A DNA stretch of 40,621 nt from Candidatus Moraniibacteriota bacterium (lineage in GTDB: Bacteria; Patescibacteriota; Minisyncoccia; Moranbacterales; UBA11712): the NCBI GenBank assembly GCA_028695025.1, contig JAQVJV010000007.1, positions 1 through 40,621 on the forward strand, written 5' to 3'. Below are positions 9,412 through 35,878 of this stretch, in pieces (positions within the stretch are counted from its first letter, which is position 1; the number at the start of each line of letters is the position of its first letter). The translations under genes were made by a program, and so were the position numbers. The notes beneath the pieces were generated by a model. It had not been told where the DNA came from, made no database searches, and saw nothing but the letters and a program-made list of their open reading frames with translations.

Positions 9412-9419
9412 AACCAAAA

Positions 9420-9457
9420 CATTCAATGTTCGGGATACCCGAACATTGAATATTGGG
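9420..9457. repeat. Palindromic repeat ATTCAATGTTCGGG-ATA-CCCGAACATTGAAT
   Basis: 14-bp perfect inverted repeat between the CIRCE and hrcA; related sequence recurs inside cysS. Confidence 0.8.
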
Positions 9458-9471
9458 GTAAGCCCGTATAA

Positions 9472-30152: not shown

Positions 30153-30476
30153 TCATAGTGTTGCATGATGCACCATCCTTTCAGGTTGATACCTGACGTC
30201 CCACGCAACCATGAGGGTCATAAATTCTTTTGCGTCTTCACTGGTTGGGTTGGGGTTGGTGCACATTGTCCGCCAACAGCAATTTCTATCACAATACCCT
30301 TCACAAGTTTTAAAGCAAGGAGAATTTCCTTCTCGAATTTGCCTAGTCCTTATGAATTGGATAAATCGATCTCCCAGACATTTTGGGCAAAGTCCATGAC
30401 TGTCGGCAACAGAATCGCCATCAGATACATACGGATGGCCGCATCCAATGCAACCACGCATAGATTTTTCAAACAT
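30153..30476 (-). CDS. Cys-rich zinc-ribbon-like hypothetical protein
   Basis: CIGCGHPY...LCPKCLGDR...CEGYCDRNCCWRTMC; SD GGGAGA upstream of ATG. Confidence 0.6.
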   Translation of the reverse strand: MFEKSMRGCIGCGHPYVSDGDSVADSHGLCPKCLGDRFIQFIRTRQIREGNSPCFKTCEGYCDRNCCWRTMCTNPNPTSEDAKEFMTLMVAWDVRYQPERMVHHATL

Positions 30477-30651
30477 GGCTGTCTCCCTTTAAGCCGACAT
30501 CACCGGCAACCTTAGATCTTGCTTCGTAGCAGGCGGTTTTCGGGCCGTAAAGCACCAAATGCCTAACCACCATCGCGTGACGCTCCCGAAGAGGGAGTTG
30601 GAAATAAAGATCACTCGACATGAGCGATCTAATTATCTCTCTGAAAGTCAT
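30469..30651 (-). CDS. Small hypothetical protein (start MTFREIIRSLM)
   Basis: AAGGGGG SD before ATG 30651; 4-codon-scale overlap with the next gene; the longer ORF to 30816 reads through a structured leader. Confidence 0.55.
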   Translation of the reverse strand: MTFREIIRSLMSSDLYFQLPLRERHAMVVRHLVLYGPKTACYEARSKVAGDVGLKGDSHV

Positions 30652-30680
30652 AACCCACCCCCTTAAAATTTTTTTATATT

Positions 30681-30727
30681 TTCTCTCGCCCAAGAAACTA
30701 TGCTTCATAATTTCCTCGGCGAGAGAA
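30681..30727 (-). other. Strong leader hairpin
   Basis: Minus strand TTCTCTCGCCGAGGAAATTATG-AAG-CATAGTTTCTTGGGCGAGAGAA, about 21 bp, two G-U wobbles only in the minus sense. Confidence 0.7.
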
Positions 30728-30745
30728 GCTATATTTTGGGAGTCA

Positions 30746-30856
30746 ACCCCGCACCAGTTCCCATAATTATTCTTGCTATTATTCAAGGCTAACTGCAAAA
30801 CGGCTTCGCCTTGCACGATTGCCTACTAATAATTATCACCAGAACTGGTGCGGGGT
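30746..30856. repeat. Palindromic element copy B (related to the rsmH insert)
   Basis: ACCCCGCACCAGTTC...GAACTGGTGCGGGGT 15-bp perfect TIRs plus AATAATTAT inner arms. Confidence 0.75.
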
Positions 30857-31034
30857 AAAAAAAAGCGACCGCATGAAAAAACCGAATCGCTTATCTTCAA
30901 GTTTCAAGGTACAACGGTTATCCCCTATTTTTACCCAGTTAAACTCGCAAAGCGAATATATCAACCGGGGTCTTTTCACAACCGTGGTACCTCGCCATAT
31001 TTGACATGATTTTTGTTTTCGAAGAAGTGCTGGT
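30857..31034 (-). ncRNA. Candidate orphan structured RNA (about 178 nt)
   Basis: Promoter upstream, nested helices GGTACCACGGTT/AACCGTTGTACC and CGGTTGA-TAT-ATTCGC-TTT-GCGAGT-TTAACTG, terminator AAGCGATT...GGTCGCTT+T8. Confidence 0.6.
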
Positions 31035-31040
31035 TCTTTT

Positions 31041-31070
31041 ATTTTAGGCTTGTTTCAGAAAAGCTGTCAA
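31041..31070 (-). promoter_or_regulatory. Promoter of the candidate ncRNA
   Basis: TTGACA-N18-TAAAAT on minus strand. Confidence 0.65.
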
Positions 31071-31116: not shown

Positions 31117-32409
31117 CTATTGTCCCGGAAGCCATTTTTTCGCTTCTTCCGGATGGAGCATAACTTCTTTGGATATGATCTCCATTTTCATTCCTCGGGA
31201 TCCTTTCACTAAAATCACATCCCCTTCTTGAAGCATATTTTGGATAGGGTTCTTTGCTTCAATCGGGGTATGATAGCAGATTATTTTCGAATTGTCAAGG
31301 CCAGTCTTTCCTGCTTCGTCGGCAATGAAACGCGCCCGCTCACCCACCGCAATCAAAACATCCGCCACTTCCGCCGCTTTCCTCCCCACTTCGCGATGTC
31401 CCTCTTCCGTTTTTTCACCGAGTTCAAGCATATCCCCCAAAACGGCAATTTTTCTCCGCGCGTCAATCTTTTCCAAAACTTCAAGCGCGGCGAGCATCGA
31501 TTGCGGCGCGGCATTATAGCTATCCTCAATAATCATCGTGTTTTTAATCCCTTCAATAAGGTTGAGCCTCCCGGCTGGAGAGCGGAAGTCCCGGATCGCG
31601 GCGGCAATCTGCACAAGATTCATATTGAAACCGATCCCGACCGCCGCCGCCGCCAGCACCGCCGAAATTTGCGGCCGTCCGACCGAATGAAGAAGCCGCA
31701 TGGGAATCGTCGTTCCTTGATAGCTCAACTTGAAGCTCACTCCCCGGATTTTGTTCATGCTTCCGCCCATTCCGTCCGCCGTTTTCTCATAGCCGAAAAA
31801 TATGTCCGAAGCGCGCACGTCCGCGTCTTCCGAAAAGCCGAAGGATATTTTCCGCGCTTTCACTTTCTCCGCCATCTTCCGAATTTCCTTGTCATCCCAA
31901 TTGAGGATCGCCACGCCGTTTTTCCCAAGTGTCCGGACAAGCTGGCTTTTCTCCCGCGCAATCGATTTCTTGTCTTTGAAAAACTCCAGGTGGCTTATTC
32001 CGACCGCTGTCACCACCCCCGCCTCCGGATGGAGGAAATCAACCAGATATTTGATGTCGCCCGGACGATCCGCCCCCATTTCAAGCACCAGTATCTCCGG
32101 ATATTTTTCCCGGGAGCCGAAAAAAGCGATTGAAAACGCTTTCAAGATGGCCAAAAACCATTGGGAAAAACTTCCGCCCCCGCCATCAAGGCCCAAGACA
32201 GTGAGCGGAAGGCCAATTTCATTGTTGTAATTCTTTTCATTCCTGCGAACCCGGTACTTGGCGGAAAGGACGGCATAAACCGCTTCTTTGGTGGAAGTTT
32301 TTCCAACTGATCCGGTGATGCCAACCACCCGCGGTTTGAACCGCGCGAGAGCCTTCGCAGCAAAATATTTGAGAATTTTTTCGAGCAATATCAGTTTTTT
32401 GGATTTCAT
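31117..32409 (-). CDS. murF: UDP-N-acetylmuramoyl-tripeptide--D-alanyl-D-alanine ligase
   Basis: GITGSVGKTSTKEAV, EMGADRPGDIKYL, EDSYNAAPQSMLAAL. Confidence 0.95.
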   Translation of the reverse strand: MKSKKLILLEKILKYFAAKALARFKPRVVGITGSVGKTSTKEAVYAVLSAKYRVRRNEKNYNNEIGLPLTVLGLDGGGGSFSQWFLAILKAFSIAFFGSREKYPEILVLEMGADRPGDIKYLVDFLHPEAGVVTAVGISHLEFFKDKKSIAREKSQLVRTLGKNGVAILNWDDKEIRKMAEKVKARKISFGFSEDADVRASDIFFGYEKTADGMGGSMNKIRGVSFKLSYQGTTIPMRLLHSVGRPQISAVLAAAAVGIGFNMNLVQIAAAIRDFRSPAGRLNLIEGIKNTMIIEDSYNAAPQSMLAALEVLEKIDARRKIAVLGDMLELGEKTEEGHREVGRKAAEVADVLIAVGERARFIADEAGKTGLDNSKIICYHTPIEAKNPIQNMLQEGDVILVKGSRGMKMEIISKEVMLHPEEAKKWLPGQ

Positions 32410-34825: not shown

Positions 34826-35878
34826 TTATATTTTCTTGGCAATTCTCAATTTGGCGCTACGGCTCCGCGGATTGGAGATGATTTCCGCTTCACCCGCCAT
34901 AATGGGCTTCCTGGTGATGATTTCAAGCTGTGCCTTGTGCTCGCAGACACATTTCGGGAATCCCGGCGGGCAAAGACACCCTTGCCCGGCCTCCCGAAAA
35001 AAATTCTTCACTATCCGGTCTTCAAGCGAGTGGAAGCTGATGATAGCTAATGTCCCCTGACTAGCCAGCACATCAACCGCCTGGTTGAGAAATGTTTTCA
35101 AATTTTCAAGTTCACGGTTGGTTTCAATCCGCAAGCCTTGAAAAACTTTGGTGGCAAAATGAATTTTTCCTTTTTTGTATCTTTCCGGCACGGACCGGGA
35201 AACAATTTCCACCAATTCTTCCGTTTTTTCTATATTTTTAATTTTTCTTTCTTCTACGATTTTTCTTGCGATGCTCCCGGCAAACCTTTCTTCTCCGAAA
35301 TTCCTGAAAATTTTGGCCAATTCTTTCTCGGAATAACAGTTCACGACATCCGCCGCTGTCCCTTTTTGTGAATTTGAGTAGCGCATATCGAGCGGCCCGT
35401 TCCGGAGAAAGCTGAAGCCCCTTTCAGGATTTTCAATCTGGTCGGAACTGAATCCGAGGTCGACGAAAACTGCGTCTGCGGTCTTCACCCCCAGCCCCCT
35501 CAAAATACTTTTTAAATTGGCGTAATTATCGACGGCTCCGCACCAATTTCCAACGATCTTCCCTTCGCGATTCCCTAGTTTCGTGAAATGAAGAAGGGAT
35601 TGGCCGTCATTTTTTGTTTTAATATTGATCGGCGCGGAGCCAGCCGACATGATCAACTCTCTTTTTGCAATAGAAATTCCTTTTTGGAGCGTTCTTTCAA
35701 AATTCCGGATCGGCTTCTCATCCCAATCGATCGAAATCAGCCTGCCTCCGGGAATAATCTTTTCCAATATGGCTTTCGAATGGCCGCCCGCCCCCAACGT
35801 TCCATCAACTACTGTCATTCCGGGTTTCAGGCGCAAATTTTCAATTACCTCCCCCAGCAATACTGATTTGTGTAGCAT
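34826..35878 (-). CDS. rsmH: 16S rRNA (cytosine1402-N4)-methyltransferase with a 36-aa palindromic insertion
   Basis: HKSVLLGEVIENL, DGTLGAGGHSKAIL, DLGFSSDQIENPERGFSF, ISFHSLEDRIVKNFF. Confidence 0.96.
   Translation of the reverse strand: MLHKSVLLGEVIENLRLKPGMTVVDGTLGAGGHSKAILEKIIPGGRLISIDWDEKPIRNFERTLQKGISIAKRELIMSAGSAPINIKTKNDGQSLLHFTKLGNREGKIVGNWCGAVDNYANLKSILRGLGVKTADAVFVDLGFSSDQIENPERGFSFLRNGPLDMRYSNSQKGTAADVVNCYSEKELAKIFRNFGEERFAGSIARKIVEERKIKNIEKTEELVEIVSRSVPERYKKGKIHFATKVFQGLRIETNRELENLKTFLNQAVDVLASQGTLAIISFHSLEDRIVKNFFREAGQGCLCPPGFPKCVCEHKAQLEIITRKPIMAGEAEIISNPRSRSAKLRIAKKI
35534..35641 (-). repeat. Palindromic element copy A, in frame in rsmH
   Basis: GGCTCCGC...GCGGAGCC termini, 108 bp = 36 codons; excision restores canonical RELIMSA-VDNYANLKSIL. 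Confidence 0.8.

Follow-up and report, generated by a model that had tools for sequence, protein, structure and literature searches.

A palindrome-bounded, probably mobile element family in protein genes, tRNA genes, and intergenic DNA of Moranbacteria-like Patescibacteria

The palindrome at positions 30746 to 30856 of the 40,621-nucleotide stretch of Candidatus Moraniibacteriota DNA analyzed here (the window) most probably belongs to a family of non-autonomous mobile elements with palindromic ends, which occurs in Moranbacteria-like Patescibacteria and in some related lineages. We put the probability of this reading at about 0.7. We observed many dispersed copies, sites that are occupied in one genome but vacant in a closely related one, and arms that are kept complementary even in coding sequence. 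An earlier note on this DNA had proposed that the palindrome and an insert in rsmH belonged to one family that lands in both coding and noncoding DNA. This is borne out by the copies we found between genes, within protein genes, and within tRNA genes.

The outer 15 bp of the window element, ACCCCGCACCAGTTC (30746 to 30760) and GAACTGGTGCGGGGT (30842 to 30856), are fully complementary, as the note had read them, and the inner AATAATTAT arms that it described are present as well. The full inverted arms extend over 30746 to 30774 and 30828 to 30856. In its family-sense orientation the element lies on the minus strand. It belongs to an intergenic subfamily of 110 bp (n = 19; covariance model score of the window copy, 84.8 bits, with the copy itself in the model), which shares the center AAGGCGAAGCCGCTTCGC and is an exception to the otherwise unrelated interiors of the family. 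The central hairpin GCAAGGCGAAGCCGTTTTGC (30795 to 30814, minus strand) is the interior motif common to this subfamily in other genomes. Folded as a hairpin, the 111-base element reaches −46 kcal/mol on the plus strand and −55 kcal/mol on the minus strand.

The genome of the window is 984 kb and 99% complete. The upstream neighbor of the element is murF (31117 to 32409, minus strand), whose homologue in genome G001 has a different, in-frame copy. After murF comes a small-RNA-like unit (30857 to 31070, minus strand) with a TTGACA/TAAAAT promoter, a conserved stem, and a terminator, and the element starts right where this terminator ends. The unit, with its own promoter and terminator and a stem around AATAGGGGAUAACCG, is conserved 3′ of murF in G000 to G005, and 8 of its 24 predicted consensus pairs show compensatory changes. 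An Rfam search with the unit gave no match. The loop of its conserved stem holds an extra hairpin in G000, G001, and G005 and none in G002, G003, and G004. Downstream of the element is a small open reading frame of 60 amino acids with a strong Shine-Dalgarno sequence (30469 to 30651, minus strand); as read from the sequence, the element lies within its leader. A 28-bp imperfect hairpin, CTCTCGCC...GGCGAGAG, is found at 30675 to 30733, between the element and this Shine-Dalgarno sequence. By the same kind of reading, a TTGACT stands at the end of the window copy with no −10 box at the correct distance. The window copy probably has no dedicated function.

The arms of the family read (C)CCCGCACCARTT...AAYTGGTGCGGGG and stand 60 to 150 bp apart around interiors that are mostly unrelated. 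We used a covariance model, R1, made from nine copies with all rsmH copies left out. R1 matched the rsmH inserts of the sister genomes G001, G005, G003, and G007 at E values of 1e-5 to 0.01, which places the window site and the rsmH insert in one dispersed palindromic family. The match to the window genome's own rsmH copy was weak (E = 0.11). The right-end pattern found seven paired palindromes in this genome (C3:40323, C7:30746, C20:21340, C20:74795, C25:8367, C25:8974, and C8:9638), eight with the rsmH insert. Thus, where the note had allowed that a genome-wide search might find only two sites, there are at least eight; this is a lower bound that comes from pattern and model searches and retrieved stretches. 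With R1 we found about 10 to 30 copies each in G001, G003, G004, and G009, few in G002, one to two in G010, and no copy in G008. A DNA search returned related copies in G002, G004, and G007.

The significant signal is the pairing of inverted ends, not the lone end motif. The 13-base end motif alone was not significant in the window (6 matches versus 4.75 expected). Paired inverted ends occurred 90 times in 214 kb of family loci, versus a mean of 0.12 and a maximum of 2 for 100 control 10-mers of equal GC content; these loci were retrieved via the model, so the count measures motif specificity rather than unbiased density. The strict arm pair CCCCGCACCA-N60..90-TGGTGCGGGG was present in at least 113 stretches of GTDB genomes, with many Patescibacteria among the matches listed, and the chance estimate from base counts for the whole GTDB collection is about 14. 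Matches outside the Patescibacteria may in part be chance or other repeats. An exact rsmH-type match in a Moranbacteria genome (L096) was also among the matches listed. A thinned phylum-wide search, whose stricter filters lose weak matches, found the family in 6 of 190 other genomes. We rejected a phage-borne element, as the viral_contigs collection gave one match versus two for a control palindrome.

The coding copy that the note had singled out lies in rsmH (MraW methylase, PF01795; 34826 to 35878, minus strand). It is in frame at 35534 to 35641 on the minus strand, with 36 codons between the arm ends, the arms GGCTCCGCACC / GGCGCGGAGCC, and the peptide SAGSAP...GNWCGAV. The insert is present in G000, G001, G003, G004, G005, and G007 and absent from G002, G006, and the aligning members of the order; a different palindrome lies close to this position in G009. 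In the six genomes with the insert, 12 of 12 arm pairs were kept, four of them with changes on both sides, and slid controls kept 0 to 2. Palindromy is therefore maintained by compensatory changes inside coding sequence. Other housekeeping genes had in-frame copies as well, among them those for MurF (G001) and TopA (G002, G003, and G004, confirmed with Pfam for G002 and G004). Further in-frame copies interrupt a PriA-like helicase, ThiI (two copies), YchF, YebC, a DUF763 protein, and glycosyltransferases, and those in YchF and ThiI sit between blocks that align to solved homologues. Half of the interior residues of the coding copies (50%) are Asn, Lys, and Ser. The family is a source of unexplained loops in the proteins of Patescibacteria.

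The note had also pointed to a GNWCG peptide shared by the window copy and the rsmH insert. The peptide is indeed the right arm read in one frame, but it is not a conserved unit, because other copies read the arm in other frames (GVGV and EVVRG). As the coding copies use different arm frames, the shared peptide is a by-product. Judging from the position of the element upstream of a good Shine-Dalgarno sequence and ATG at 30651, GNWCG is probably not translated from the window copy. A second palindrome type, CCCGCCTCG...CGAGGCGGG, is in frame elsewhere in the rsmH genes of G004 (L030) and G009 (L037), so more than one such family exists.

Because the interiors are mostly unrelated, copies are not traceable to a source copy, and it is filled and empty sites alone that show recent mobility; all of these comparisons are between species rather than between strains. 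The murF site was filled in G001 only. It was empty in its congener G005 as well as in G000, G002, G003, and G004. The topA site carries the insert in G002, G003, and G004 and lacks it in G000, G001, G005, G008, and G009. Filled and empty topA alleles meet at the same codon, and the junction of the insert, GAT|TCA-CCCC...GGGG-C|AAG, is exactly shared by G002 and G003. In a concatenated tree, G000 was sister to G004 and G001/G005 was sister to G003 (support, 92 and 88), and the topA tree gave the same two groupings (support, 68 and 93). Filled and empty topA alleles are therefore split across sister genomes, which calls for precise loss or for repeated insertion at one codon. Spread of the insert by gene transfer was rejected because the filled genomes are not grouped in the topA tree. 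The window site was occupied in G000 and G001 and vacant in G005, G002, and G004; the sequences without the element fold into a hairpin, with the insertion point as its loop. A rule of insertion only into hairpin loops suits the tRNA genes and the window site, but we rejected it because the murF target is without a strong hairpin. Together with rsmH, the murF, topA, and window sites are concrete filled and empty sites for dating gain and precise loss.

The family also has copies that carry tRNA genes. We found 30 distinct palindromes that enclose a complete tRNA gene, typically 13 to 20 bases from each arm end, and in most of them the flanks are parts of a second, interrupted tRNA gene. Interruptions of the T loop have the junctions CYYG|CCCC...GGGG|TGAA, and an example from an anticodon loop is TTCA|CCCC...GGGG|CAAG. 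In several copies one outer tRNA half is decayed or not recognizable. Wherever the outer anticodon was intact, it equaled the inner one (6 of 6 cases). The tRNA carried in the window genome is Arg-TCT (C20:74813-74884), the sole Arg-TCT among the 47 tRNA genes found; provided that little of the genome is missing, the working gene has to be the inner one. The interrupted tRNAs of L076, L087, and L111 also have REP-like hairpins in the D loop (CCTGCCTGCCGGCAGGCAGG and others).

These copies suggest a minimal mobile element that has made itself indispensable: it would insert into the loop of a single-copy tRNA gene and carry a complete tRNA of the same anticodon between its arms, with the same arms bounding in-frame inserts in essential proteins and with precise gain and loss. 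We regard this fuller picture as plausible, at slightly short of even odds. A different origin of the carried gene, which we think unlikely, is that the target tRNA was duplicated into the element at insertion or repair, by template switching or gene conversion, with no foreign tRNA brought in. The inner and outer Arg-TCT of the window genome are identical (65 of 65 nt), and the anticodons agree in every readable case, both of which fit duplication. Inner and outer tRNAs elsewhere differ by 7 to 30%, however, and the acceptor stems of L257, L049, and L234 have compensated differences. For Leu-CAG (L260) and Pro-GGG (L120), the outer tRNA is clearly nearer than the inner one to the genome's own gene, which argues against duplication, and Lys-CTT and Pro-TGG show the reverse. 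We give very little credence to the idea that the interrupted outer tRNAs still function, with the palindrome as an intron or a split-tRNA joint and another tRNA within the intron. Split tRNAs occur in Nanoarchaeum; the complementary, GC-rich arms that stand at anticodon or T loops here may recall them by analogy, and the acceptor, D, and T stems of the outer genes often still pair. Yet the outer tRNA is redundant when the inner copy has the same anticodon, and extra D-loop hairpins or the loss of one half (L076, L087, L111, and L119) speak against a working outer gene. Archaeal-type splicing was rejected, because the tRNA splicing endonuclease (PF01974) was absent from the eight genomes searched, with control archaea positive.

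Copies of a mobile palindrome that carry tRNAs could serve to exchange tRNA genes or to transfer them between genomes. They also call for care in annotation: in these genomes, tRNA fragments next to an intact tRNA can be the two parts of one gene that an insert has split. The literature searched, mostly outside subscription papers and preprints, yielded nothing on palindromic elements in Patescibacteria and nothing on tRNA genes nested in tRNA loops. The replacement of tRNA genes by tRNA-carrying palindromes therefore appears undescribed in that literature and adds a context without earlier report there.

The note had called the family MITE-like and had proposed looking for target-site duplications and a mobilizing transposase. 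The likeness held for form but extended to neither of these two features. No constant target-site duplication was found, and the filled and empty pairs of murF and topA show none. The end tetramers vary (TTCA, TTTA, TTGA, CTTG, and TTAC), and TTGA/TCAA direct repeats are found in a subset of copies only. The transposase search covered the Y1/RAYT type: 0 of 56 Y1/RAYT open reading frames in the order had family arms, and the family loci contained no arm pair enclosing a gene, such as an autonomous long copy would have. RAYT was therefore rejected as the mobilizer at the genes tested in the family and the order, where the family arms are absent.

A Y1 transposase is still the most natural candidate mobilizer. 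A more specific form of the mobile-palindrome explanation, which we hold only tentatively and consider somewhat improbable, is that a Y1 (HUH) tyrosine transposase of the RAYT/TIRYT kind moves the family via single-stranded hairpins, with the arms as its terminal inverted repeats. The lack of a constant target duplication, the hairpin ends, and the insertions into loops are consistent with this, and RAYTs are present in most family genomes. Published RAYT relatives are flanked by long terminal inverted repeats with the motif GGGGWSAS (PMC3733652), which part of the outer ends here (GGGG-TGAA/TCAA) resemble. A Zixiibacteriota locus, L052, has a Y1_Tnp gene between GGTGCGGGG arms, but these arms form a REP array in which their order is mirrored, and it was a motif search that picked out the locus. 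Against such a mobilizer, none of the 56 open reading frames lies near family arms, and many have other hairpins of their own; G006, which was covered by the Y1 search and not by the element search, is without a Y1 match. No GTAG tag of RAYT/REP elements was seen on reading the ends. In L052 (Zixiibacteriota CP070839.1, 5900 to 7200), the RAYT gene stands amid REPs of the form TTGGTGCGGGGTACCCTTACCCCGCACCAA, whose stem is the arm motif mirrored.

Intergenic copies often lie directly against a −35 box. Outward ends abutted a promoter-like TTGAC../TAnnnT pair in 12 of 132 intergenic cases versus 0.09 in shuffles, a count in which one locus was entered twice because its arms pair in several ways. 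This count, the stability of the hairpins, and the position of the window site after a terminator would also suit recurrent RNA structures (processing or regulatory hairpins, or terminators) that converged on the same arms without being mobile. We find that reading very improbable, because the same arms are present in coding sequence and around tRNAs in both orientations, orthologous sites are filled or empty, and the interiors are unrelated.

We therefore favor a mobile family. The inverted GC-rich arms are conserved and the interior is not, from which we infer that the arms are the recognition unit of a mobilizing enzyme. The elements would move in trans by an enzyme that reads the arms. Insertion would be largely untargeted, frequently at the edges of promoters and in tRNA loops, and the visible copies would be the tolerated subset. 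An intergenic copy would be neutral or placed against a promoter. A copy in a protein gene would survive if its length were divisible by three and it had no stop codon, and the interior would drift to a hydrophilic, probably disordered linker. A copy in a tRNA gene would survive by bringing a functional tRNA with the same anticodon to take the place of the disrupted host gene. The elements may excise precisely, as suggested by the insert-free topA alleles that lie within an insert-bearing clade at the same codon.

Palindromic elements of Rickettsia (RPEs) have counterparts in Wolbachia, and we know of no enzyme that mobilizes them. RPEs are palindromes of about 100 to 150 bp, of several families, which are found in frame in housekeeping genes and between genes (PMC10969869). 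The present family resembles them in form, with a similar palindrome size, in-frame insertion into unrelated protein genes, and intergenic copies, and it shows that in-frame palindromic insertion, as reviewed for Rickettsia, also occurs in the Patescibacteria, a large group with small genomes. It differs in phylum and probably in arm sequence. Its interiors are unrelated between copies, whereas RPEs have a conserved element sequence and peptide, and it includes copies that carry a tRNA within a tRNA gene, a context for which the review (PMC10969869) mentions no RPE. Prokaryotic MITEs are likewise short, non-autonomous, and dispersed, with terminal inverted repeats, some copies within genes, and no capacity to code for a transposase; unlike MITEs, the family here has no constant target-site duplication, no parent insertion sequence that we found, and hardly conserved interiors.

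Mobile elements that integrate at tRNA genes also preserve the function of their target, and most of them reconstitute the end of the tRNA where they join it. Here, in contrast, a complete second tRNA lies within an insert of ~105 bp in the loop of the first. REP/BIME sequences and RAYT/TIRYT terminal inverted repeats are similarly palindromic and without target duplication, and GGGG-TGAA/TCAA recalls the TIRYT motif GGGGWSAS (PMC3733652). Unlike REP/BIME sequences, the family arms are not beside RAYT genes in the order, enclose arbitrary sequence at a spacing of 60 to 150 bp, and occur within coding sequence and in the loops of tRNAs. Elsewhere in the window, at 9413 to 9459, we observed a hairpin, AACATTCAATGTT, that is like the hairpins beside RAYT genes in sister genomes (L172, L181, and L186).
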